Source: Azoarcus olearius (GTDB lineage Bacteria; Pseudomonadota; Gammaproteobacteria; Burkholderiales; Rhodocyclaceae). From it: a DNA stretch of 64,000 nt. The notes beneath the pieces are model-generated. The model was not told where the DNA came from. It saw nothing but the letters and a program-made list of their open reading frames with translations, and searched no databases. Location of the stretch: positions 248,001-312,000 of the forward strand of contig NZ_CP016210.1 in NCBI RefSeq assembly GCF_001682385.1. The letters run 5' to 3'. Position 1 is the stretch's first letter, and every line of letters begins with the position of its first letter. Both the position numbers and the translations under genes were made by a program. Of this stretch, positions 48,247-60,841 are shown piece by piece.

Positions 48247-48313
48247 GCGGCGGTCTGCGCCTGAGCCCGCGCGGCGGCGCGCCCGCCTCGCCGTGCGCGA
48301 CGAGGACCAGGGC

Positions 48314-49669
48314 ATGAGCCTGCTGCGTATCGCCGTGGTCGGCCACACCAACACCGGCAAGACCTCGCTGCTGCGCACCCTGGCGCGGGACGCCGGGTTC
48401 GGCGAGGTGTCGGATCGGGCTGGTAGCACGCGCCATGTCGAGGGCCTGCGCCTGTTCGCCGACGGCGAAGCGGTGATCGAACTGTTCGACACCCCCGGCA
48501 TGGAGGACGCGATTGCGCTGCTGGAGCACCTGGAAGGCCTGGCTGGGCCGGGCGAGCGCATCGACGGCCCCGAGCGGGTGGCGCGCTTCCTGGCCGGCGC
48601 CGAAGCGGCCGGCCGTTACGAGCAGGAGGCCAAGGTGTTGCGCCAGCTGCTCGCGAGCGATGCCGGCCTCTACGTGGTGGACGCGCGCGACCCGGTGCTG
48701 CCCAAGCACCGCGACGAACTCGCCATCCTGGCCGGCTGCGCCCGCCCGCTGCTGCCGGTGCTCAACTTCGTGCGCGCGGCGGACGCCCGTCCGCAAGCCT
48801 GGCGCGAGGCGCTGGCGCGGCTGGGGCTGCACGCGGTGGTGAGCTTCGACACCGTGGCGCCCGCGCGCGACGGCGAGCGCCTGTTGTTCGAGGCGCTGGC
48901 GACGCTGCTGCACGGTGGGCGCGCTCCGCTCGCGCGCCTGCTCGCCGCGCGCGCTCGCGAAGCGCTGGCGCGGCAGCACGCGGCGCGGCGGCTGGGGGCG
49001 GCCCTGCTGGTGCAGCTCGCGGCGCTGCGCGTCACCGTGGCGGCGGACCCGACCGCCATCGCCGCCGCGACGGAGACGCTGCAAGCCGCGGTGCGGGCGC
49101 GCGAGCAGGCCTGCGTGGAGGCACTGCTCGCGCTCTACCGCTTCCGCTCGGACGACCTCAGCGCCCCTGCGCTGCCCTTGGTGGCGGGGCGCTGGGCAAG
49201 CGATCTGTTCAATCCGGAGTCGCTGCGTCAGTTCGGCGTCCGCGTGGGCGGCGGCGCGGCGGCGGGGGCCGCGGCGGGTGTGGGCGTCGATCTGCTGGCC
49301 GGCGGCCTCACGCTCGGCGCCGCGGCGGCGCTGGGCGCGCTTGCGGGCAGCGTGCTGCAGGTGGCGGGGGGATATCGCGAACGTCTGCTCGCCCGCGTGC
49401 GCGGTCAGCGTGAGCTGACGGTGGACGACGCCGTTCTGCGCCTGCTCGCGTTGCGCCTGCATGCGCTGGTCGAGGCGCTGGAAGGGCGCGGCCATGCCGC
49501 GCTCGATCCGATCCGTCTCGCCGATCCGGGCGCCCGGCGCTGGCGCGAGGCGGCCTTGCCGGCCGAGCTGCGGCGGGCCCGTTCGCACCCGGAATGGGCG
49601 CGCGGCGAAGGGCCGGGTTACGAGGCTGCGGTGCAGGCCCTGGCGGACGCGGAGGCCGCGCCCGGCTGA
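48314..49669 (+). CDS. GTPase with DUF3482 domain
   Basis: A 451-residue protein from the ATG at 48314. The N-terminal G domain has the P-loop GHTNTGKTS (residues 10-18), a G3 motif in FDTPGME, and an LNFVRAAD-type segment at the place of the G4 motif. The rest is the long DUF3482 helical part with a Gly/Ala-rich hydrophobic stretch (GGGAAAGAAAGVGVDLLAGG), which may contact membrane. It is paired with the DUF2868 gene, as in many proteobacteria, suggesting a membrane-associated GTPase pair of unknown purpose. Confidence 0.88.
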   Translation: MSLLRIAVVGHTNTGKTSLLRTLARDAGFGEVSDRAGSTRHVEGLRLFADGEAVIELFDTPGMEDAIALLEHLEGLAGPGERIDGPERVARFLAGAEAAGRYEQEAKVLRQLLASDAGLYVVDARDPVLPKHRDELAILAGCARPLLPVLNFVRAADARPQAWREALARLGLHAVVSFDTVAPARDGERLLFEALATLLHGGRAPLARLLAARAREALARQHAARRLGAALLVQLAALRVTVAADPTAIAAATETLQAAVRAREQACVEALLALYRFRSDDLSAPALPLVAGRWASDLFNPESLRQFGVRVGGGAAAGAAAGVGVDLLAGGLTLGAAAALGALAGSVLQVAGGYRERLLARVRGQRELTVDDAVLRLLALRLHALVEALEGRGHAALDPIRLADPGARRWREAALPAELRRARSHPEWARGEGPGYEAAVQALADAEAAPG

Positions 49670-49691: not shown

Positions 49692-50402
49692 TCAGTCGAG
49701 CGAGCCCACCAGCATGGTGTTGGCGAAGGGCGTGCCGGCATCCATCGGCATCGTCTGGACGCGGAAGCCCAGCCCTTCCAGCGTCGCCTGCCACGCGGTC
49801 ACCGGGCGGCAGTGCAGCGTGCCCAGGCGATGGCCGCGCACGAAGGTGACGACGCGGTCCACCCAGCTGCACAGATGGAAGGGCAGGCCGGCGCCGGCGT
49901 CGCCGACGCGCATGATCAGGCGGCCGCGCGGGGCCAGGGTGTCACGCACGCGCGCCAGCACCGCGTCCTGCGCCGCGATATCCACGTAGTGCAGGCAGTC
50001 GAGGATGAACACCACGTTGGCTTCGCCATAGTCGGCGTGGCGCATGTCGCCCTGCTCCACGACCGCACCCGGCGGCAGCGCCGGCAGTGCGCGGTCGACG
50101 TCGTTCTGCATCAGCTCGATGCCGCGGTAGCCCTGCAGCCGCGGCGGCGGCGGCCAGTCCGCCGGCCAGCGGCCTTCGTCGTGCAGGCGCGCGGCGGCGG
50201 TGATCCAGTTCGACAACAGGCCCTGCCCGCAGCCGAGGTCGAGCACCGTGGCCGGGTCGGGAATCAGGCCGTGGCGCAGCAGGCTGAAGAAGATCGGGTC
50301 GCGACCGAGCTTGCCGCGGGCGAAATGCCAGGCGAAATGCCCGGCGGGGCGATAGGGGGCGGTGGCGGCGTCGAGCAGCCGTTTGCGGAAGGCGGAACTC
50401 AT
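49692..50402 (-). CDS. Class I SAM-dependent methyltransferase
   Basis: A 236-residue protein with motif I VLDLGCGQGLLSNW (about residues 53-66), a motif II-like GYRGIELMQNDV and a motif IV-like NVVFILDCLHYVD. It would methylate an unidentified acceptor. The start overlaps the stop of the polysaccharide-deacetylase gene (50399-50402), and it is the last gene of the minus-strand cluster that begins with an acyl carrier protein. A link to that product is inference. Confidence 0.88.
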   Translation of the reverse strand: MSSAFRKRLLDAATAPYRPAGHFAWHFARGKLGRDPIFFSLLRHGLIPDPATVLDLGCGQGLLSNWITAAARLHDEGRWPADWPPPPRLQGYRGIELMQNDVDRALPALPPGAVVEQGDMRHADYGEANVVFILDCLHYVDIAAQDAVLARVRDTLAPRGRLIMRVGDAGAGLPFHLCSWVDRVVTFVRGHRLGTLHCRPVTAWQATLEGLGFRVQTMPMDAGTPFANTMLVGSLD

Positions 50403-51214
50403 CGAAGGGCAGCAGTCAGGGTCACGGGGTGCAGGCCGGCGGTGCGGACGGCATCGAGCAGGCGTGGCAGTACCTCCAGGATCACCGCGCGCCCGCCGGG
50501 GCTGCGCGCGGCATGGCCGTCGTGCAGCAGCAGGATGTCGCCGGGGCCGAGCTCGCGCGTAAGGCGCGCGAGCACCGCCGCCGGCTCGCCCTCGCGGGTG
50601 TCGAAGGCGCGGCGCGTCCAGCTCGCCAGCGTCAGGCCGTGGCGCGCGAGCACCGGCTCCAGGAACGGGTTGCGCAGTCCGGCGGGGGCGCGGAAGAAGC
50701 GCGGCAGCGGTGCGCCCAGACCGGCGAGTGTGTGCTGCGCCGCGGCCACGTCGCGTTCCATGCGGCGCGGGCCGAACAGCGAGAAGGTCTTGCGGTGCCA
50801 TTGCGAGTGGTTCTGCACCTCGTGGCCGGCGCGCAGGATGTCGGCCACCAGCTGGGGGTGGCGGGCGGCGTTCTCGCCGATCAGGAAGAAGGTGGCACGG
50901 GCGCCGGAGGCCGCAAGCTGGGCGAGCACCTGCGGCGTCACCTCGGGGTCGGGGCCGTCGTCGATGGTCAGTGCGATTTCGCCGCGTGCAGCCGCCGCGG
51001 CGGGCAGCCGCGTCCAGTTGGGGCCGAGCAGGCGGCTGCGCGGCCACAGCCCGGCCGCGGTCAGCGCGGCGTGGTTCAGCGCCAGCGCGGCGAGCACCCA
51101 TCCCCACCACGCCGGCGCGGCCGCCAGCCCGCCGAGCGCGCCAAGGTGGAGCGCCAGCGTGGCGGTGATCAGCGGGGTGGGGCGCCAGCGGCGGACGGCG
51201 GGAAGGGCGTGCAT
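50399..51214 (-). CDS. Polysaccharide deacetylase (NodB-type) with N-terminal membrane segments
   Basis: A 271-residue protein. Two hydrophobic segments at the N terminus (LITATLALHLGALGG and WWGWVLAALALNHAALTAAG) are followed by the NodB domain: TIDDGPDPEVTP (catalytic and metal aspartates), the metal histidines in NHSQWH, RFFRAPAG and LLHDGH. All family motifs are intact. It probably removes N-acetyl groups from a sugar or a lipid-linked sugar at the membrane. It is 84 bases after the hydrolase gene and overlaps the methyltransferase gene. Confidence 0.9.
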   Translation of the reverse strand: MHALPAVRRWRPTPLITATLALHLGALGGLAAAPAWWGWVLAALALNHAALTAAGLWPRSRLLGPNWTRLPAAAAARGEIALTIDDGPDPEVTPQVLAQLAASGARATFFLIGENAARHPQLVADILRAGHEVQNHSQWHRKTFSLFGPRRMERDVAAAQHTLAGLGAPLPRFFRAPAGLRNPFLEPVLARHGLTLASWTRRAFDTREGEPAAVLARLTRELGPGDILLLHDGHAARSPGGRAVILEVLPRLLDAVRTAGLHPVTLTAALR

Positions 51215-51298
51215 AACGGCGGGATTGTAACTTTGCTGGGCGACGGCGCGATGACCGGCGGCGTCTTCAAGTGCTTGATCGACGGCGCTTCGCGCGCC

Positions 51299-52000
51299 TC
51301 AGCGGTGCAGGCGCGGCGCCAGCCACGTCAGGGCGTGGTCCCACAGTGCGGTCCAGGTCGGCCAGTCGTGCCCGCCGGGGTGCCGGCAGTGCGCGCCCGC
51401 CGGCAGCATCGCGCCCATCAGCGCGTGGCCGCGCGCAAAGCGGTCTTCGCTGCCGTACCCCAGCCATACCGGCGGCGCACCGGCGGCGGCGATGCGCTGC
51501 AGCGCGCGCCAGCCGCGGCGCTCGTCGTTGGGCGGGTAGTCGGCGGCCGGTGTCCACTGCGCGAGTCCGCCGGCGCCGGCGATCTCGCCGCTGATCGCGC
51601 GGTTGCCGGGGTAGGGCGCCAGCAGCACCAGGCTGGCCGCCTCGTCCGGGCAGGCGTCGGCGTGCATCAGCGCCGTCAGCGCGCCGATCGAGATGCCGCC
51701 GGTGTGGACGCGGGTGGCGCCGGCGGCGCGCGCGGGCGCGATCACCTCGTGCTGCAGGCGGTGCGCCAGGCTGCCGTCGCACACCGCGGCGAGATCGCTC
51801 TCGACCAGGACCAGATCGAGCGCAAGGCCGCGCGCGGCGCGCGCATCGGCAAAGCCGGCGGCGATGAAGTCGGCCGGGCCGTCGTAGGCGCCGGCCAGCA
51901 GCACCAAGACGTCCGCCGCAGGGTCGGCCCCGGCGCGCACGATGTGCTGGTCGAGGCGGGCGCGCGGTGGCGGCGGAGCAGGCGGCCGCGGCGTGCTCAT
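51299..52000 (-). CDS. Alpha/beta-hydrolase-like protein of the ACP cluster
   Basis: A 233-residue protein from the ATG at 52000, overlapping the exporter stop. The segment GGISIGALTAL has the GxSxG nucleophile-elbow form, an HADACPDEAASLVLLAPY strand follows, and the C-terminal GGHDWPTW supplies a histidine, so an alpha/beta-hydrolase fold is likely. I do not recognise a specific family. In this cluster it might act as a thioesterase or esterase on the exported product; this is inference from location. Confidence 0.7.
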   Translation of the reverse strand: MSTPRPPAPPPPRARLDQHIVRAGADPAADVLVLLAGAYDGPADFIAAGFADARAARGLALDLVLVESDLAAVCDGSLAHRLQHEVIAPARAAGATRVHTGGISIGALTALMHADACPDEAASLVLLAPYPGNRAISGEIAGAGGLAQWTPAADYPPNDERRGWRALQRIAAAGAPPVWLGYGSEDRFARGHALMGAMLPAGAHCRHPGGHDWPTWTALWDHALTWLAPRLHR

Positions 52001-54408
52001 CGTCCGCAGGCGGGTGCCGGCAGCACGGCGCGGGCGTCGCCCCGGCTGCCGAGCATGGCGGAGAACACCAGCGCGAGCACGGCGCCCGGCCCCACGGTGA
52101 TGCCGATCGCCTGCAGCACCGGCACCTCGGAGAAGGCCAGCAGGCCGAATGCGCATACCGTGGTGCAGTTGGCGAAGAACAGCGAGGCCAGCGTGCGCGG
52201 CGCGGCCATGCGGCCGTCGGCGCGGTTGAAGAACAAGGTGTAGTTGGAGCCGACCGCAACGATCAGCAGCATGCCGACCAGGTGCAGCAGGATGAGCTGC
52301 TTGCCGGCCAGCGCCAGCCCGGCGGTGACCACCAGCACCGCGGCGGCGAGCGGGGTGACCACGCGCAGCACCTGTCGCGGGCTGCGCAGGAACACCAGCA
52401 GCAGCACGACGACGGCGGCGACGCCGCCGAGCGCGAGGCGGATCGCCTCGCGCAGGTAGTTGGCGTACAGCGCGTCGGACTCCTGCTTGAGGTCGAGGAA
52501 CAGCGGCGCGCTGCCGTCGCCGGCACCGGCGAGCGCGGCGCGCACGCGGCCGGCGTCGATCAGGTCGGTGCCGTCTTCCGGCGCGCGCAGCGGCAGCAGC
52601 GCGCGCACGCCGCCTTCGGTGTGGATCAGCATCGCCTGCACCGGCAGCCCGAGCGAGCTGCCGGCCATGCTCTCCGGCGTCAGCGGCGGGCGCTGGCGGG
52701 CGGCGTCGATCTCGTCGAGGAAGGGCGTCAGGCGTTCGGCTCGCAGCGGCAGCTCGGCGGTGGCGGCGTGGAGCCGCGCGGCGAGCTCCTCACGCGCCGG
52801 CAGCGCGGCGCGGCGCGCCGCCTGGGTGGCGAGGCTGGGCAGGTAGCGCGTGGGCGCGTCCCAGCCGGCGATGACGCCGTCGGCCTGCAGCGCGTCCAGC
52901 CGCGGCGCGAGCGCCTCGACCGCACGCAGCGTGGTTTCGGTATCGGCCCCATCGACCACCACCAGATAGCGCACGTCGGGCGCGCCCATCTCGGTGCGCA
53001 GCCGCATGTCCAGTTCCTGCTGGCGCATCGGCACCGGGCTCAGCGCCAGCAGCTCGCTGTTCCACAGACCGTCGTGGCGCAGCGCGAGCACGGCCGCGGC
53101 ACCGGCCGCGAGCGCCACCACCAGCCAGGGCAGACGGCCAGCGGCGTTGGCGAGCGCGGCCAGGCGCAGGCCGAGGGGGCGGACGTCGCGCAGGCGGAAG
53201 TCCGCCGGCAGCAGCGTGGGCAGCAGATAGCGGGTGACCAGCACCGCGGCGATCAGGCCGGCGATGGAATACAGCCCGAGCTGCGCAAGGCCGGGAAAGC
53301 CGGACGCGAACAGCGCGGCGAAGCCCGCGACCGAGGTCAGCAGGCCGAGCCGTATCGTCGCCCAGAAGCCGTCGCGGCCCTCATCCGGGTCGTCGTCCTC
53401 CGCGGCGGTGCCGGGTCCGCGCCCGGCGCGCACGAAGAGATAGATCGCGTAGTCCACCGCTTCGCCGATCAGCGTGGTGCCGAAGCCGAGCGTGAGCCCG
53501 TGCACCACGCCGAAGCCGAGGCTGACCGCGGCGACGCCGGCGAGCGTGCCGGTGACGACCGGCAGCATGCCGAGCAGCAGCACCGTCAGCGAGCGATACA
53601 CCGCGAGCAGGAAGCCGACCGTCAGCACCGCGCCGAGCACGGCGATGCGCTCGACCTCGCGCTTGATGGTGGCGCGCGACTCGACCGCGAACACGCCGGG
53701 GCCGGTCATCTCCAGCCGCAGCGGCGTCGCCGCGGCGGCGCTGCCGCGCGCGGTCTCGAACTCGCGCTGCAGCGCGCCCATCGCCGCTTCCTGGGCGTCG
53801 ATGTCGGAGCCGGCGGCGCGCGTCAGCGCCAGCATCAGCGCGGTCTCGCCGTCGCGGGTGATCCACACCCCGTGGGCGGGGTCGCGCGCCGGCTGGGTGC
53901 CGGGGTCGAGTCGTTGCAGCAGCTGCATCAGTTCGCCGGTGGGGTCGCGGGTGACCAAGGGCTTGACCAGCATGCCGGCCGGCGAGGCGAGCAGGTTGAG
54001 GGTGTCGGTGAGCGCGGCGCGCAGGCCGTCGGTGCTGAAGCGGGCGGGCGTCACCGCCGGGCTGAGCAGGTAGCGGTTGTCGAACAGCCAGCGCTGTTCT
54101 TCCTGCAGCGCGCCGCTTTCGCCGTTGTTGACCGAGACGAAGCGGGCGTCGCCGTGCAGCGCCGCGGCCATCGCCTGCGACACCCGCCCGCGGGTCTCGG
54201 CGTCGCCGCCGGAAATGCCGACCAGGATCAGCCGCGACACCATGCCGTCGCGCAGCTGGTCCACCAGCAGGCGCTGCTCCGGCGTGGGGTTGCGCGGCAG
54301 GAACACCGACATGTCGGCGGTGAACTGGCTGCGCGCGATGATCAGCGCAAGCACCGCCATCACCGCCAGCCAGATCGTCAGTGCCGCGAGGCGCGGGCGC
54401 CGGCTCAT
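51997..54408 (-). CDS. MMPL/RND-superfamily exporter of the ACP cluster
   Basis: An 803-residue membrane protein from the ATG at 54408. It starts MSRRPRLAALTIWLAV, has a first periplasmic loop, a central membrane domain (about 240-420) and a second membrane domain near the C terminus, in all about 12 segments. The pattern GFGTTLIGEAVDYAIYLFVRAGRG is typical of MMPL family proteins found in aryl-polyene and related loci. It should move a lipid-like product across the inner membrane. ATGA overlaps join it to the LolA-like gene upstream and to the hydrolase gene downstream. Confidence 0.93.
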   Translation of the reverse strand: MSRRPRLAALTIWLAVMAVLALIIARSQFTADMSVFLPRNPTPEQRLLVDQLRDGMVSRLILVGISGGDAETRGRVSQAMAAALHGDARFVSVNNGESGALQEEQRWLFDNRYLLSPAVTPARFSTDGLRAALTDTLNLLASPAGMLVKPLVTRDPTGELMQLLQRLDPGTQPARDPAHGVWITRDGETALMLALTRAAGSDIDAQEAAMGALQREFETARGSAAAATPLRLEMTGPGVFAVESRATIKREVERIAVLGAVLTVGFLLAVYRSLTVLLLGMLPVVTGTLAGVAAVSLGFGVVHGLTLGFGTTLIGEAVDYAIYLFVRAGRGPGTAAEDDDPDEGRDGFWATIRLGLLTSVAGFAALFASGFPGLAQLGLYSIAGLIAAVLVTRYLLPTLLPADFRLRDVRPLGLRLAALANAAGRLPWLVVALAAGAAAVLALRHDGLWNSELLALSPVPMRQQELDMRLRTEMGAPDVRYLVVVDGADTETTLRAVEALAPRLDALQADGVIAGWDAPTRYLPSLATQAARRAALPAREELAARLHAATAELPLRAERLTPFLDEIDAARQRPPLTPESMAGSSLGLPVQAMLIHTEGGVRALLPLRAPEDGTDLIDAGRVRAALAGAGDGSAPLFLDLKQESDALYANYLREAIRLALGGVAAVVVLLLVFLRSPRQVLRVVTPLAAAVLVVTAGLALAGKQLILLHLVGMLLIVAVGSNYTLFFNRADGRMAAPRTLASLFFANCTTVCAFGLLAFSEVPVLQAIGITVGPGAVLALVFSAMLGSRGDARAVLPAPACGR

Positions 54409-54983
54409 CGCGCGGGCGGCTCGATGCGCATCACCGAACGGTCGCCGTCGGCCTGCTGGATCTCCACGCCGCGTACCTCGCCGCGGCTGCCGCTGACGCG
54501 GATGCGCAGCACCACCTTGGTCACCGCCGGATCGGACGGCAGCAGGTCGAGCGCCCACTGCGCCGCGCTGCCCGACAGGCTGAGCGCGTAGGTGCGTTCC
54601 AGCGCCTTGCGGTCGCCGGCGAGGGTGGCACGGATGCTCTCGATCAGCGCCGCGGCTTCGGGGTAGTCGCGCAGCTTGAGGCTGTGGTTGCGGCCCTCGC
54701 GGGTGAGGCTGAGGGTGTCGCCGTCGAGCACCATGGTCTCGCGCACCGGGGTCTCGGTGTGGCGCTCCAGCCGCGCCGGCGGCACATAGACCAGCTCGCC
54801 GGTGGCCACCAGCGGCGCGTCCAGCATCGCCAGGTGGCGGGTTTCGGTGAAGCGCACGCGGCCGCCGCCATTGGCGGCGAGCAGCGTCATCAGCTGCGGC
54901 ACGTCCCACGCCGCCGCGGCCACGGGCGGCGGGGTGAACGCGAAGGCGAGCGCCAGCAGCGCGGCGGACAGGAAGCGGCTCAT
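54405..54983 (-). CDS. LolA-like outer-membrane lipoprotein carrier-related protein
   Basis: A 192-residue exported protein. The signal peptide (FLSAALLALAFAFTPPPVAAA) leads into a LolA/LolB-type fold: VRFTETRHLAMLDAPLVATGELVY and later beta strands (LERHTETPVRETMVLDGDTL). Proteins of this type stand in aryl-polyene-like clusters directly before the MMPL exporter gene and probably carry the lipid product across the periplasm. Overlaps of 4 bases with both neighbours show tight coupling. Confidence 0.87.
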   Translation of the reverse strand: MSRFLSAALLALAFAFTPPPVAAAAWDVPQLMTLLAANGGGRVRFTETRHLAMLDAPLVATGELVYVPPARLERHTETPVRETMVLDGDTLSLTREGRNHSLKLRDYPEAAALIESIRATLAGDRKALERTYALSLSGSAAQWALDLLPSDPAVTKVVLRIRVSGSRGEVRGVEIQQADGDRSVMRIEPPAR

Positions 54984-55912
54984 CGGTCGGCGTCGCCCCA
55001 GAAGTCGAAGAAATTGAACCAGTTCGACGGCGCTTCGCGGCAACAGGTTTCGAGCGCGTCGGCGTAGCGCCGCATCGCGGCGGCGATCGCGGCCTCGCGC
55101 CCGTCGCGCGCCACCCCGGCAAAGTCGGCGATCGGCAGGAAGCGGATCGTGTAGCGGTTGCCGCCGTGGTAGAGCCCGGCCATGAACACCACCCGCGCTT
55201 CCAGCATCGCCGCCATGCGGAACGGCCCGGCCGGCAGCGCGGCGGGGCTGCCGAGCAGCGGCAGGCTGACGCGGTCCTCGCTTTCGAGGCTGCGGTCGGC
55301 GAGCACGCCGACCAGCGCGCCCTGGGCGAGCCGCGCGCGCACCTTGAGCATCGCGTCCAGCCGGCCGAGCGCGATCACCTCGGGGCGCGCCGCCGGATTG
55401 ATCGCCGCCAGCAGGGTGTTGATGCGGCGCGCGTTGTCCTCGTACATCGCCAGCGCGATGCGCAGGTCGGGCTGGTGGCGGCCGACCGCGCGGATGACCT
55501 CGAAGCTGCCGAGGTGGGCGCCGAACAGCAGCGCGCCGCGGCCGGAGGCGACCACCTCCTCGATCAGCGCCTCGCCCTCGATGCGGATGTCGAACAGGTC
55601 GAAGCGGTCTTTCAGCAGATAGAGGCGGTCGTGGATGGTGGAGGCGAAGCAGTGCACATGGCGGTAGCCATCGGCGAGCCGCGCCGGGCGGCCGAGCGCG
55701 CGCCCGAGATAGGCGCGCGAGGCGCGCCGCGCGCTGGGCGTGAACAGCACGAAGTAGGTGGTGATGAGGTGCAGCACGAGGCGTCCGGCCGGGCGCCCGA
55801 GACGCAGCGAGATCCACGCCATCAAGCGCAGCAGCAGCATGTTGCTGCGCTCCGGCCGCTGCGCCCATTCGGTGCCGGTGCTGCCCTGCCCGGGGGTGGA
55901 ATGGACGCTCAT
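54980..55912 (-). CDS. LpxL/HtrB-family acyltransferase
   Basis: A 310-residue membrane-bound acyltransferase. The HX4E catalytic motif is visible as His133-Glu138 (GAHLGSFEV), with a single N-terminal membrane-associated part near LVLHLITTYFVLF. The family transfers fatty acyl groups, in lipid A synthesis from ACP; in aryl-polyene clusters a homologue attaches the polyene to a lipid. Here it would use the cluster's own ACP. It lies between the dehydratase and LolA-like genes with 4-base overlaps on both sides. Confidence 0.9.
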   Translation of the reverse strand: MSVHSTPGQGSTGTEWAQRPERSNMLLLRLMAWISLRLGRPAGRLVLHLITTYFVLFTPSARRASRAYLGRALGRPARLADGYRHVHCFASTIHDRLYLLKDRFDLFDIRIEGEALIEEVVASGRGALLFGAHLGSFEVIRAVGRHQPDLRIALAMYEDNARRINTLLAAINPAARPEVIALGRLDAMLKVRARLAQGALVGVLADRSLESEDRVSLPLLGSPAALPAGPFRMAAMLEARVVFMAGLYHGGNRYTIRFLPIADFAGVARDGREAAIAAAMRRYADALETCCREAPSNWFNFFDFWGDADR

Positions 55913-56220
55913 CGCGCGGCGTCCGGCGGCGCCAGCGTGCCGCTGGCCACGGCGCGCTCGCCGCAGGCGAGGCGGAAGGCGATCGCGCCGCTGGCGGCAG
56001 GGGCCTGCCAGCTCAGCGTCACCACGTCGCCGGGGCCGACCGGGCTGAGGAACTTGGCGCTGGCGAGCTTCCAGCAGGTGGGCGGCAGCGCGAATTCCGC
56101 TTCCAGCGCCTGCACCGCCTCGTCGAGCAGCACGACCCCGGGCACGATCGGACGCCCCGGGAAATGGCCGGCGAACGCGGGATGGTCGGCGGCGATCGCC
56201 AGGGTGCGGCTGCCGCTCAT
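55909..56220 (-). CDS. FabZ-like 3-hydroxyacyl-ACP dehydratase, short form
   Basis: A 103-residue hotdog-fold protein. The catalytic segment is HPAFAGHFPGRPIVPGVVLLDEA with His19 in the position of the FabZ active-site histidine. It is shorter than the 150-residue FabZ, as are the dehydratases of aryl-polyene loci. It would remove water from a 3-hydroxyacyl chain held on ACP. The cluster lacks a ketosynthase and ketoreductase, so its supply of substrate is unclear. Confidence 0.85.
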   Translation of the reverse strand: MSGSRTLAIAADHPAFAGHFPGRPIVPGVVLLDEAVQALEAEFALPPTCWKLASAKFLSPVGPGDVVTLSWQAPAASGAIAFRLACGERAVASGTLAPPDAAR

Positions 56221-57566
56221 CGCGCGCGCCGCTCCGCGTGGGCGGCGAGCAGCGCGGCGCAGGTTTCGCGCGGCAGCTTGCCGGTGGCGTTGCGCGGCAG
56301 CGCATCCAGCCACACCACCGGGCGCGGCAGGAAGACCGCGTCGATGCGCTCGCGCAGTGCGGCCTGCAGGGTGGCGGCGTCGAGCGTGGGTGCCACCACG
56401 AACGCGGCCAGGCGCACGATGTGGGCGCCGCCGCTGTCGTCCGGCAGGTAGAAGGCGCCGTCGCGCACGCCCGGAATCGACAGCAGCTGCTGGTTGAGAT
56501 AGCCGAGCGAGGTGCGCTTGCCGGCGATGTTCACCAGGTCGGCATTGCGGCCGCGGAGCAGGAAACGACGCGCGTCCACCTGTTCGATGACGTCGGACAT
56601 CGGCACCGCGCGCTCGATGTGGCCGCCGCTGGCCCAGGTGTGGCCGTCGTCGCGCGGCGCGAGTTCGATGCCGGGGAACAGCGTCCACGCTTCGCCCTGC
56701 GCCGAGCGCCGGGTGGCGATCTGGCCGGTTTCGGTGCTGCCGTAGATTTCCAGCAGCGGCGCGCCGAACGCGGCTTCGGCCGCCACCGCCAGCTCGACCG
56801 GCAGCGGCGCGGTGGCCGAGACCACCAGCGCGGCGGGCGGCACGGGGATGCCTTCGTCGAGCAGCGTGCGCAGGTGGAACGGGGTCGTCACCAGCGCTGC
56901 GGGGGCCGGGGCGCGTTGCAGCGCGGCGACGATGTCCGCCGGATAGAACGGGCGCCCGGCGTCGAACGCCGCGCCGCTCTGCAGCGCGACCAGCACGGTC
57001 GATTCGAAACCGTACATGTGCTGCGGCGGCACCGTGCCGACCAGCGTCGCCGGGTGCGCGGGGTCGAGCCCGAGCGCGATGCCTTCGGCCTGCACGTTCA
57101 CCACCAGCCGGCCCCAGGTCTTGGGATGCGGCACCGGGCTGCCGGTGGAGCCGGAGGTGAACACCCAGGCCACCAGCTGTTCGCTGGCGATGCAGGGGAT
57201 GTCGCACGCACCGGCCGGCACCGCGGCGGCGTCGAGCAGGGCCGGGAAGGGCATCGCCGGCAGCGGCAGGTCGGCCACGTCTCCGTCGGTCAGCACCGTG
57301 GTGTCGGGCGCGAACGCGGCGAGGTGGCGCAGCGTGTCGGGCGTGTAGGTGGAGGGCAGCAGGCTGATCTTGCCCGCCACCATGCCCGCGGCGAAGCCCA
57401 CCGCGAAGCGGTAGCGGTCGGTGCAGGCATTGAGCACGTGGCGGCCTGCCGGCAGCGCCGCGGCGACCTTGCGCACGTCGGCGAGAAAGTGGCGGACGGT
57501 GATCGCCTCGCCGTGGCGGCGCGCGACGACCGCGTCCGGGGAGGTATGCGTGACGAGGGGCAGCAC
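56217..57566 (-). CDS. AMP-binding acyl/aryl ligase (aryl-polyene-type)
   Basis: A 449-residue adenylate-forming enzyme. The P-loop reads VFTSGSTGSPVPHPKTW, the A5-type motif EIYGSTETGQIA, the hinge region RGRNADLVNIAGKR, and the C-terminal catalytic lysine lies in RNATGKLPR. Such ligases in aryl-polyene-like clusters load a starter acid onto the acyl carrier protein. It starts 16 bases after the small membrane protein and overlaps the dehydratase gene. Confidence 0.9.
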   Translation of the reverse strand: MLPLVTHTSPDAVVARRHGEAITVRHFLADVRKVAAALPAGRHVLNACTDRYRFAVGFAAGMVAGKISLLPSTYTPDTLRHLAAFAPDTTVLTDGDVADLPLPAMPFPALLDAAAVPAGACDIPCIASEQLVAWVFTSGSTGSPVPHPKTWGRLVVNVQAEGIALGLDPAHPATLVGTVPPQHMYGFESTVLVALQSGAAFDAGRPFYPADIVAALQRAPAPAALVTTPFHLRTLLDEGIPVPPAALVVSATAPLPVELAVAAEAAFGAPLLEIYGSTETGQIATRRSAQGEAWTLFPGIELAPRDDGHTWASGGHIERAVPMSDVIEQVDARRFLLRGRNADLVNIAGKRTSLGYLNQQLLSIPGVRDGAFYLPDDSGGAHIVRLAAFVVAPTLDAATLQAALRERIDAVFLPRPVVWLDALPRNATGKLPRETCAALLAAHAERRAR

Positions 57567-57582
57567 GATGGGCAGTGGGTGT

Positions 57583-58236
57583 TCAGGCCGCGGGCGGGCT
57601 GGCGCGGCGGCCGGCGTGCATGCAGGCGCGCACGGACTCCACCAGGCCGGTGCGCAGGCCCGGCGGCAGCAGCAGGCGGCGCACCAGGAACTCGGCGGCG
57701 AACATCAGCGCCACCAGCAGCGGGGTGAGGATGTTGACCAGCAGCGACCACAGCGGCAGCGGGCCGCCGAAGAACAGCAGCAGCGAGGCGGTGGTCATCG
57801 CGGTGAAGAACAGCGCCCAGGCGGCGGTGGCGCCGCGGGTATAACGCACCAGCGGCGGTGCCAGTTCGGCGCCGTGCACCAGGCGGGCGAAGCGGGTGAT
57901 CATCGGCTCGCCGCCGAGGCTGCGGCCGAAGCCGATCGCGAGCAGGCCGAAGGTGCCGACGTGCTGGATCAAATACACCCACTCGAAGCGGGCCTCGACC
58001 ACCGGCCACTGGCGCCACAGCAGCGCGGCGCCCAGTGCCCACAGCGCGAGCGCGAAGCCGCGGTGGCGGGCGCGCGCCGCCATCGCCAGCGCGGCCGCCA
58101 TGTAAGGCACGACCGCAAGCAGCGCGCCCAGCGTGGGGTGCTGGCCGGACGCGGTGGTGTGATGCGCGAGCAGCAGGTAGGCAGCGAACGCGACGGCGGC
58201 CAGGGCGGCGCGGCCGAAGCGCAGCGGCGTGGTCAT
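57583..58236 (-). CDS. Membrane protein of aryl-polyene-type clusters (COG4648-like)
   Basis: A 217-residue integral membrane protein from the ATG at 58236, which overlaps the ACP stop by one base (TGATG). It has five or six hydrophobic segments, e.g. AALAAVAFAAYLLLAHHTTA and WALFFTAMTTASLLLFFGG, and the GRSLGGEPMITRFARLVHG segment I associate with COG4648. It is found between the ACP and ligase genes in aryl-polyene loci; its function is not known. Confidence 0.85.
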   Translation of the reverse strand: MTTPLRFGRAALAAVAFAAYLLLAHHTTASGQHPTLGALLAVVPYMAAALAMAARARHRGFALALWALGAALLWRQWPVVEARFEWVYLIQHVGTFGLLAIGFGRSLGGEPMITRFARLVHGAELAPPLVRYTRGATAAWALFFTAMTTASLLLFFGGPLPLWSLLVNILTPLLVALMFAAEFLVRRLLLPPGLRTGLVESVRACMHAGRRASPPAA

Positions 58237-58520
58237 CACTGCACCCGGTGGGTGGCGATGTAGTCGCCCAGGCTGCGCAGCGAGGCGAAGATCTTCAGGT
58301 TGTCCTCGTTGTCGGCGCGCAGCGAGAAGCCGTAGCGCTTGGACACCACCAGCGCCACCTCGAGGATGTCGATGGAGTCCAGTCCCAGGCCTTCGCCGTA
58401 GAGCGGCGCATCCGGTTCGATGTCCTCCGCGCGGACTTCGAGATTGAGCGCGGTGACGATCAGCGCGGCGACTTCGGCGAGCAGGGCGGCATCGGCGGAT
58501 GCGGGGGCGGTGTGGGTCAT
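58236..58520 (-). CDS. Acyl carrier protein of the lipid/polyene-like cluster
   Basis: A 94-residue protein with the 4'-phosphopantetheine site Ser49 in LGLDSIDILEVAL (DSI instead of the common DSL). The acidic helices of an ACP are complete. It heads the coupled series of genes ending near 51299 and probably holds the acyl chain for the ligase, dehydratase and acyltransferase encoded downstream. Related loci usually have two ACP genes; only this one is present here. Confidence 0.93.
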   Translation of the reverse strand: MTHTAPASADAALLAEVAALIVTALNLEVRAEDIEPDAPLYGEGLGLDSIDILEVALVVSKRYGFSLRADNEDNLKIFASLRSLGDYIATHRVQ

Positions 58521-58642: not shown

Positions 58643-60034
58643 CTAGCGTGGGGAGGGACTTGCCGCGGCCAGCACCACCGTGGCGGCCAGTCCCACCCCG
58701 GCCGGCGCGCTGCGCGGCAGGCCGTCGCCGAGGCGGAATTCGCCGCCGTGCAGCTCGACGATGCGGCCGACGATGGACAGCCCGAGGCCGCAGCCTTCGC
58801 CGTCCGCCGCCACCCCGCGCGCAAAGCGCGCACGCAGGCTGTCGCGCGCACCGGGCTCCAGGCCGGGGCCGTCGTCGCTCACTTCCAGCACGCAGCGCAT
58901 GCCTTCGCGCGCGGTGCGCACGCGGATGTGGCTGCCCGGCGGCGCGTAGCGCAGCGCGTTGTCGATGAGGTTGCGGGCGAGGATGTCGAGCCACACGGCG
59001 TTGCCGCTGACGGTGGCGGGGGCCAGCGCGCACTCCACCTGTTGCTTGCGCGCGGCGCTGCGCGGGGCGAGCGCTGCAACCGCGGCCTCCGCCACCGCCG
59101 CGAGGTCGACCGGGGCGAAGGCGGGCTGCGCGGCTGCGGGTTCGAGCCGGGCCAGCGTCAGCAGCTGGTCGACCAGATGGGTCATGCGGTCCACGCCGGC
59201 AATGACCTGGTCGAGCGCGCGCTCGCGCGCCGCACTGTCCTCGCCGGCACGGGCGGCCACCTGGGCCTGGATGCGCAGCGCGGCAAGCGGGGTGCGCAGC
59301 TCGTGGGCGGCGTCGGCGGTGAAGCGCTGCTCGCCGGCGAGCGCGGCCGCCATTCGCCCGATTAGCCGGTTGAGCGCCTGCAGCAGCGGGGCGATCTCCT
59401 GCGGCGGCGGATCGGCGAGGCCCACCGGGTTCAGCCCGTCGGGCTTCATCGCTTCCACTTCCGCCGCGAGCGCGGCGACCGGCTGCAGCGCGCGGCCCAC
59501 GGTCAGCCAGATCGCCGCGGCGAGCAGCGGCAGCGCAAGGAGGAAGGGCAGCAGGATGCGCAGCGTGAGTTCGCGCGCGAGCGCATCGCGCCCGGCATGG
59601 TCCTGACCCGCGATGACCGCGAAGTCGCCGCGCCGCAGCAGGTAATGGCGCCAACGGCGGCCATCGCGCTCGCCGTCGCTGAGGCCTTCGTGCACCGTCA
59701 TCGCCGTGGCGGGCGCGCTGGCGGAACGTAGCAGCAGGCTGACGCGGCCATCCTGGCGGCCCCAGACCTGGTAGGCCACCGGCAGGGTGTCGGGGTAGGC
59801 GTGCTCCGAGAGTTCGTGTTCGGCGTAATCCACCCCGGCGTCGGCGGCGATCGCCATGAGGGTTTCGGCCACGACCACCAGCTGCGCATCGAAGGCGTGC
59901 TCGGCCTCGGTGTGGGCCGCGCGGTAGGCGAGCACGATGGTCAGCGCCGACACGCCGCCGGCCACTAGCAGCAGCAGGCCGAGCAGCCGCCGCTTCAGCG
60001 ACCAGCCGGGCAGCGGCAGCGCGTCCGCGCTCAT
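58643..60034 (-). CDS. Sensor histidine kinase, QseC/PmrB-like
   Basis: A 463-residue membrane kinase. It has two membrane segments (about residues 18-38 and 160-180) around a periplasmic sensor of about 120 residues, a HAMP-like linker, the phosphorylated His244 in DAAHELRTPLAAL, the N box (LARNLIDNALRYAP) and G boxes (SDDGPGL, GCGLGLSIV). It is translationally coupled to the response-regulator gene (ATGA at 60031). The signal is unknown; metals or oxidative stress would fit the neighbouring efflux and PepSY genes. Confidence 0.94.
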   Translation of the reverse strand: MSADALPLPGWSLKRRLLGLLLLVAGGVSALTIVLAYRAAHTEAEHAFDAQLVVVAETLMAIAADAGVDYAEHELSEHAYPDTLPVAYQVWGRQDGRVSLLLRSASAPATAMTVHEGLSDGERDGRRWRHYLLRRGDFAVIAGQDHAGRDALARELTLRILLPFLLALPLLAAAIWLTVGRALQPVAALAAEVEAMKPDGLNPVGLADPPPQEIAPLLQALNRLIGRMAAALAGEQRFTADAAHELRTPLAALRIQAQVAARAGEDSAARERALDQVIAGVDRMTHLVDQLLTLARLEPAAAQPAFAPVDLAAVAEAAVAALAPRSAARKQQVECALAPATVSGNAVWLDILARNLIDNALRYAPPGSHIRVRTAREGMRCVLEVSDDGPGLEPGARDSLRARFARGVAADGEGCGLGLSIVGRIVELHGGEFRLGDGLPRSAPAGVGLAATVVLAAASPSPR

Positions 60035-60687
60035 GCCGGCACCGTGTAGCCCACGCCGCGCACGGTGTGGATGAGGTCGGCGCCGAGCTTGCGCCGCAGG
60101 TGGTGGATGTGGACCTCCAGGGTGTTGCTCTCGGCGCCTTCATCCCAGGCATACAGCTGCTCGTCCAGCATGCGCCGCGTCAGCACGGTGCCGGCGCGCG
60201 ACAGCAGCACGTAGAGCAGGTCGAATTCGCGGCTGGTCAGCGCCACCTCCGCGCCCGCGCGGCGGACCCGGCGCGCCGCGGGGTCGAGTTCGACCTCGCC
60301 GTGGCGGATGACTCCGCTGGCGCGGCCTCCGGCGCGCCGCAGCGCCGCGCGCAGGCGGGCCGCGAGTTCGTCGAGATCGACCGGCTTCACCATGTAGTCG
60401 TCGGCGCCGAGGTCCAGCCCGCGCACCTTGTCGGCGACGGCGTCGCGCGCGGTCAGGATCAGCACCGGGATGTCGTCATGGCGCTGGCGCAGCGCCGCGA
60501 GCAGGCTGTTGCCGTCGCGCCCCGGCAGGCCGAGGTCGAGCACCACTGCCGAGAAATGCTCCAGCGCCAGCGCCGTCTCCGCGGCCTCCGCGCTGCGTAC
60601 CCAGTCCGCATTGAAGCCGGCCAGCCGCAGGCCCGCCTGCAGGCCGTCGCCCAGCAGGGCATCGTCTTCCACCAGCAGTATCCGCAT
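60031..60687 (-). CDS. OmpR-family response regulator, QseB/PmrA-like
   Basis: A 218-residue regulator. I chose the ATG at 60687, which has AGGA at suitable spacing; an ATG four codons upstream is possible. The receiver domain has the acidic pair Glu7-Asp8-Asp9 and phosphorylation site Asp51 (VVLDLGLPG), with Lys in DYMVKPVDL. The C-terminal winged helix ends in TLEVHIHHLRRKLGADLIHTV. Sites of the form TTAA-N7-TTAA, as bound by PmrA/QseB-type proteins, lie at 60767-60783 and 61659-61675. Confidence 0.95.
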   Translation of the reverse strand: MRILLVEDDALLGDGLQAGLRLAGFNADWVRSAEAAETALALEHFSAVVLDLGLPGRDGNSLLAALRQRHDDIPVLILTARDAVADKVRGLDLGADDYMVKPVDLDELAARLRAALRRAGGRASGVIRHGEVELDPAARRVRRAGAEVALTSREFDLLYVLLSRAGTVLTRRMLDEQLYAWDEGAESNTLEVHIHHLRRKLGADLIHTVRGVGYTVPA

Positions 60688-60766
60688 CTCCGTCCTCATG
60701 CCGCCCGCTTCAAGCGCCCGGCGGTCCGCGCCGGCGCTTACACATCGACACTTTGCCCCGCGCCGG

Positions 60767-60783
60767 CTTAAGCGGCCATTAAT
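60767..60783. promoter_or_regulatory. PmrA/QseB-type binding site between regulator and PepSY genes
   Basis: CTTAAG, five bases, ATTAAT: a direct repeat with TTAA half-sites 11 bases apart, close to the consensus YTTAAK-N5-YTTAAK. It lies in the divergent region between the response-regulator and PepSY genes and may serve both. Confidence 0.6.
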
Positions 60784-60841
60784 CAAGCGCTGCCGAGAAT
60801 GGCCGCGCAACCGGCACATCGCCGCTTACGAGGAGATCATC

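Follow-up and report, generated by a model that had tools for sequence, protein, structure and literature searches.

Why does a run of aryl-polyene-type genes in Azoarcus olearius hold no enzyme for building the polyene chain? The window analysed here (64,000 nucleotides, positions 248,001–312,000 of the single 4,451,751-bp contig NZ_CP016210.1; genome completeness 99.99%) contains ten such genes, which fill positions 49692–58520 on the minus strand, and none of the ten encodes a ketosynthase (KS), chain-length factor (CLF), ketoreductase (KR), glycosyltransferase or second acyl carrier protein (ACP). We conclude that the ten genes are almost certainly one half of the arcuflavin pathway, and that they were probably separated from its KS genes by a single origin-spanning inversion of ~382 kb. 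Judged by their order and annotation, they are arcM–arcV of this already published pathway, and the split itself has also been published (PMC3949708).

The ten genes occupy the space between a DUF3482 GTPase gene (end 49669) and a histidine kinase gene (lower end 58643), and the lack of chain-building genes in this space, pointed out in a preliminary description of the region, is confirmed here. The series from ACP to hydrolase that it described is real in coordinates and order, mostly with 1–4-base overlaps; its gene list omitted a methyltransferase and a deacetylase that lie within its own interval. With the starts chosen here, seven of the nine junctions overlap by 1–4 bases and the other two are gaps of 84 and 16 bases. 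For several genes the chosen start, fitted to the preceding gene, lies inside a longer mechanical open reading frame. Pfam backs eight of the ten proteins, the hydrolase-like and the membrane protein having no Pfam or NCBIfam match. A DSI phosphopantetheine motif can be read in the ArcV sequence, and ArcQ scored 42.5 bits against the NCBIfam flexirubin LolA2 model, under its cut-off of 125. arcM is the final gene of this half, and the cut falls just past its stop codon.

Of the two readings put forward in the preliminary description, one placed the chain-building enzymes elsewhere in the genome. The full-genome search that it proposed for KS, CLF and reductase genes found a distant locus, as expected of a split cluster, with KS, CLF, a dehydratase-like protein and KR at 4,366,929–4,370,208, and this first reading is the right one. 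In the genome profile search, both KS Pfam domains matched at three places (1.872 Mb, 4.367 Mb and 326.6–327.3 kb). The KS at 1.872 Mb scored 216 bits with PF00109, and four more places matched the N-terminal KS domain only (34–39 positions, 25–30 bits, cut-off 20.8). The second arc locus (in L013, at 4.367–4.377 Mb) carries, in this order, KS, CLF, a protein at the dehydratase position and KR, as arcK-J-I-H. Its ArcK is a PRK09185-type KS (NF006618, 535 bits, cut-off 407), the CLF at arcJ is of the PF13723 type, and the ArcH KR matches NF004200 (372 bits, cut-off 273). Past the KR lie a Na+/H+ exchanger, an ArgC-like semialdehyde dehydrogenase-family protein, a family-2 glycosyltransferase and a PlsC-type acyltransferase, and MipA, an FkbO/Hyg5-type chorismatase and a halogenase-like flavoprotein close the list. 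The chorismatase matched the FkbO/Hyg5 N-terminal domain at 113 bits (cut-off 27) and stayed under the cut-offs of TIGR04444 (221 bits vs 325) and Ribonuc_L-PSP (21.5 vs 27.3). The ArgC-like gene (arcF; L013:13574–14551) lies within the arc genes here and in the compared genomes G023, G078 and G116, and was not detected in G061 or G102.

A third locus, dar (L012, 326.5–334.3 kb), carries another KS and the second ACP (326,484–327,820), ABC transporter genes, a BtrH-type protein, a DarB-type KS and a protein at the DarA position. The BtrH-type protein scored 462 bits with the NCBIfam DarH model (cut-off 300), and the DarB-type KS scored 618 bits with the subfamily model NF005293 (cut-off 450) and 493 with the exact DarB model (under 550). 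The dar ABC ATPase and permease genes are split by a Phd/YefM antitoxin and PIN toxin pair (L012:3092–3741; genome 329,091–329,740). The genome thus contains the KS–CLF pair expected of aryl-polyene (APE) clusters, not in the single contiguous cluster that is usual for them: CLF and ArcU lie ~388 kb apart around the origin.

The three loci correspond to those of Azoarcus sp. BH72, for which the yellow aryl-polyene pigment arcuflavin was published in 2014 (PMC3949708). Its Table 1 lists arcM–arcX as azo0253–0264, arcL–arcA as azo3910–3921 and darK–darA as azo0283–0293, with darG and darH annotated as 'prevent host death' and PilT genes. The two BH72 arc loci are described as not physically linked, and the text read gives no origin of the split. 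Here, arcM–arcV are present in BH72 order (arcO and arcU are unnamed in both and were paired by position), and the unlinked arcK-J-I-H locus with its antiporter, ArgC-like, glycosyltransferase, acyltransferase, MipA, chorismatase and halogenase genes matches BH72, as do darA, darB, ACP, KS, BtrH-like protein and ABC transporter in the dar locus (darK was not looked for). Altogether, arcM–arcX, arcL–arcA and darA–darJ agree with Table 1 in gene order and kind, the Phd/PIN pair included. The preliminary description allowed that the ligase and ACP might belong to another known pathway; this did not hold, as the gene order equals arcM–arcV and the ACP exceeds the NF006617 cut-off. The masses computed from sequence (ArcT, 47.19 kDa vs 47.1 expected in PMC3949708; ArcB, 35.46 kDa vs 35.24) fit a close relative. 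In BH72, insertion in either arcK or arcT alone gave colourless cells, which shows that function survives the lack of contiguity there. BH72 ArcB made 3-hydroxybenzoate and BH72 ArcT activated it, and arcuflavin (m/z 608.386) has a structure proposed from mass spectra.

The second reading in the preliminary description was a reduced, KS-free ligase–ACP–acyltransferase system, in which a ready-made acid would be activated, joined to a lipid and exported. The interval 49692–58520, which lacks KS, CLF and KR, agrees with such a system, as do ten of the 48 named loci of at least 21,000 bases in which no ArcK-like KS of at least 50% identity occurs within 10 kb of arcT. It would, however, require a genome without KS, CLF and KR, and here all three are on the same chromosome. 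We sampled 121 family genomes (markers ArcU and CLF) and 281 class genomes (markers ACP model and CLF); each set is drawn from a larger group, and forms without this kind of ACP or ArcU would escape the markers. ArcU was present in 30 and CLF in 35 of the family genomes, with CLF in all 30 that have ArcU; in the class, ACP exceeded its cut-off in 64 genomes and CLF was found in 65, including all 64 with ACP. Neither ArcU nor ACP was therefore ever met without CLF in the sampled genomes, and on these co-occurrence counts we rejected the KS-free system, which we hold to be very improbable. Moreover, arcK mutants of BH72 are pigmentless (PMC3949708). The converse also occurred: five family genomes have CLF without ArcU (G028, G038, G072, G103 and G119), among which G072 and G103 hold a CLF homologue and no ArcU match at E 1e-10, possibly as divergent or decayed clusters, and one class genome (G358) has CLF without ACP above the cut-off.

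Whole genomes were used for these counts because the named loci, the best 80 of 333 relatives, reach at most 10 kb on each side of arcT. An ArcK-like KS (at least 50% identity) was found in 50 of the 80, or in 38 of the 48 that are at least 21,000 bases long; 20 of the 30 loci without it are shorter than that. Three of the ten long KS-lacking loci were traced: two match G078 and G096, where CLF lies 17 kb off on the same contig, and one matches G116, where CLF is on another contig. G078 (L099–L100) and G096 (L101–L102) carry ~7–8 kb of extra DNA between arcN and arcP/arcO, so that the KS falls outside the 10-kb flank search.

Distances between the markers bear on the assembly. ArcU and CLF are 8.7–17.1 kb apart in 24 of the 30 family genomes, on different contigs in four, and far apart on one contig in two (this genome and the congener G023); in G060, with two ArcU matches, the one on the CLF-bearing contig was counted. 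ACP and CLF lie within 33.1 kb in 52 of the 64 class genomes, on different contigs in 11 and far apart in one (this genome). Contiguity cannot be judged where the markers fall on different contigs (4/30 and 11/64). Given that adjacency is usual in these relatives, the KS genes might truly adjoin arcM and have been displaced by misassembly, which the preliminary description had named as a refutation. G023, however, shares both the split and its flanks, and the BH72 loci are published as unlinked (PMC3949708), so that the chance of an assembly error is close to nil. As the genome is one contig and 99.99% complete, a contig break does not explain the missing KS genes; the single contig and the identical split in G023 led us to reject break and misassembly alike.

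How the halves came apart is suggested by relatives in which they are joined. arcM lies directly before arcK in six of them (G061, G078, G096, G102, G116 and L016, an Azoarcus metagenome-assembled genome locus), giving the unsplit order arcV-U-T-S-R-Q-P-(O)-N-M-K-J-I-H. The G116 junction contig starts at arcN, with arcV on another contig, the G096 contig ends past arcG, and L016 ends at arcH. An arcO homologue holds the same position in G023, G061, G096 and L016, and was not detected in G078 or G102. In this genome and G023, arcM is flanked by the GTPase gene and arcK by a FecR gene (arcL). In the unsplit congeners G116 and G078 (L108, L109), the reciprocal block DksA-DUF2868-GTPase-FecR-Tll0287-like-kinase runs unbroken along a single strand. 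The GTPase gene was found in seven of nine genomes searched and the Tll0287-like gene in four of nine; since G102 is the only genome outside the genus with both, at distant places and with a weaker match (40% identity), the reciprocal junction rests on these two draft congeners. Turning round the stretch that reaches from arcK across the origin to the GTPase gene (84.8 kb + 297.7 kb) recreates both junctions, with strands that match, and the strands at the two junctions agree with an inversion. The inverted segment spans the origin because dnaA sits at base 433 (439 in G023); on a circle, inversion of the remaining chromosome is equivalent. We infer that the arc genes were continuous in the ancestor and that an inversion parted them. 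It is likely that one such inversion of ~382 kb, in an ancestor shared by this species and one congener, divided a functional pigment operon at arcM/arcK and that both halves were kept in use.

The halves could also have come to lie ~388 kb apart around the origin if one of them had been transposed or acquired horizontally, and breakpoints without a clear mediating repeat speak in favour of this. The cut, however, lies at a single site between genes, and in two unsplit congeners the flanks of both halves adjoin, with the order and strands predicted by a two-break inversion. Transposition of a block would not bring those flanks together again, and we consider this route unlikely. Several points tell against a split arcuflavin pathway produced by inversion. 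Between the two 2-kb breakpoint regions there is no clear mediating repeat: even the best matches are short, with E 0.003, and include an inverted one of 21 bases (90%) against a GC-rich background. The assemblies of G078 and G116 are drafts, each with the two ancestral junctions on separate contigs. The match to BH72 is one of gene order and annotation in Table 1 of PMC3949708. The ArcI-like dehydratase has no family match and was named from its position, and DarA, also without a family match, was named by position and a reading of its sequence. The second ACP (DarC) is weak (NF006617, 51.7 bits, under 70; PF00550, 21.8 bits, barely above the cut-off of 20.8), and arcuflavin production by this strain is a prediction.

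Within each breakpoint, the repeats are short two-copy families only. A search of the open-access literature on Azoarcus, aryl polyenes and inversion found no paper, and the origin of the split may be in print elsewhere; its likely evolutionary cause is a small addition to a published system.

The junctions also touch on which neighbours belong to the pathway. A FecR-domain gene at the BH72 arcL position (L013:7879–8871) adjoins the Tll0287-like and DUF3482 GTPase genes, not arc genes, in two unsplit congeners, and arcL probably belongs to this GTPase-FecR-kinase neighbourhood, the break having placed it beside arcK. In G023 (L095), arcV adjoins close homologues of arcW and arcX, and none was found at E 1e-6 around arcV in G061, G078, G096, G102, G116 or L016, so their regulatory role in the pathway is unproven. 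Several of the 80 named loci gave weak ArcW/ArcX-like matches (25–41% identity) ~3 kb or more from arcV, which we read as apparently unrelated two-component genes.

Table of features at the split arc locus; positions are those of the window.
Gene	Product	Length (aa)	Position	Strand	Support
	DUF3482 GTPase, at breakpoint, outside pathway		48311..49669	+	PF11981, PF01926
arcM-type	Methyltransferase	236	49692..50402	-	Pfam Methyltransf_23; position as in BH72 Table 1 (PMC3949708)
arcN-type	Polysaccharide deacetylase family protein	271	50399..51214	-	PF01522, E=1.1e-25
arcO-type	Hydrolase-like protein	233	51299..52000	-	No Pfam/NCBIfam match; 'hydrolase' is a putative label
arcP-type	MMPL/RND exporter	803	51997..54408	-	PF03176, E=1.6e-8
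arcQ-type	LolA-like periplasmic carrier	192	54405..54983	-	LolA_3, E=1.6e-26
arcR-type	LpxL-family acyltransferase	310	54980..55912	-	PF03279, E=1e-15
arcS-type	FabZ-like dehydratase	103	55909..56220	-	PF07977; FabZ models under their cut-offs
arcT-type	AMP-ligase (47.19 kDa, computed)	449	56217..57566	-	PF00501, PF13193
arcU-type	Membrane protein	217	57583..58236	-	No family match; served as pathway marker
arcV-type	Acyl carrier protein	94	58236..58520	-	NF006617, 137 bits (cut-off 70); PF00550
arcW	Sensor histidine kinase		58643..60034	-	Close homologue next to arcV in G023
arcX	OmpR-type response regulator		60031..60819	-	Linkage as arcW

Within the aryl-polyene/dialkylresorcinol route, the half in the window would provide starter loading, dehydration, transfer and export. 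By homology, ArcB, encoded elsewhere, would make 3-hydroxybenzoate, and ArcT would activate it, presumably onto ArcV; ArcK/ArcJ would then extend, ArcH reduce and ArcS/ArcI dehydrate the chain to the polyene, which ArcM probably O-methylates. DarA and DarB would make the resorcinol to which the polyene is esterified, and ArcQ/ArcP and the acyltransferases probably act in transfer to the outer membrane or in export into it. Apart from those of ArcB and ArcT, these roles are inferred.

A seemingly incomplete cluster is therefore complete at the level of the genome, in an arrangement published as functional in Azoarcus sp. BH72, which suggests that a search confined to a single neighbourhood can mistake a split pathway for an incomplete one. 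The proposed inversion would be an example from nature of a clean cut between two genes within a run, and gives reason to doubt that arcL is part of the pathway. If it is true, the arcL label, and perhaps those of arcW and arcX, are accidents of neighbourhood rather than marks of pathway genes.

Among known systems, the Ape clusters of Escherichia coli, Xenorhabdus and Acinetobacter share the PRK09185-type KS, the PF13723-type CLF and the PRK09184-type ACP. Two solved structures are related to the CLF at E ≤ 0.001, 6qsp_B and 7f28_A, which we take to be Ape proteins. Ape clusters are contiguous and are not known to have a XanB2/FkbO-Hyg5-type chorismatase or dar genes. Flexirubin clusters of Bacteroidota yield a polyene ester of dialkylresorcinol, and their NCBIfam LolA2, FlxB reductase, DarB and DarH models were matched here; they belong, however, to another phylum, and among these models only DarH exceeds its cut-off (462 bits vs 300). 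Xanthomonadin pig clusters of Xanthomonas and Lysobacter, compared by their description in PMC3949708, share the logic of chorismatase, KS/CLF, KR, dehydratase, acyltransferase and AMP-ligase, and differ in forming one cluster whose product lacks dialkylresorcinol. The arcuflavin system of BH72 comes closest (PMC3949708): as here, it has three separate loci with the same gene kinds and order and a Phd/PIN pair among the dar genes, at a similar distance from the chromosome start, going by BH72 locus numbers only, and at the level of Table 1, darK left aside, we see no difference between the two.

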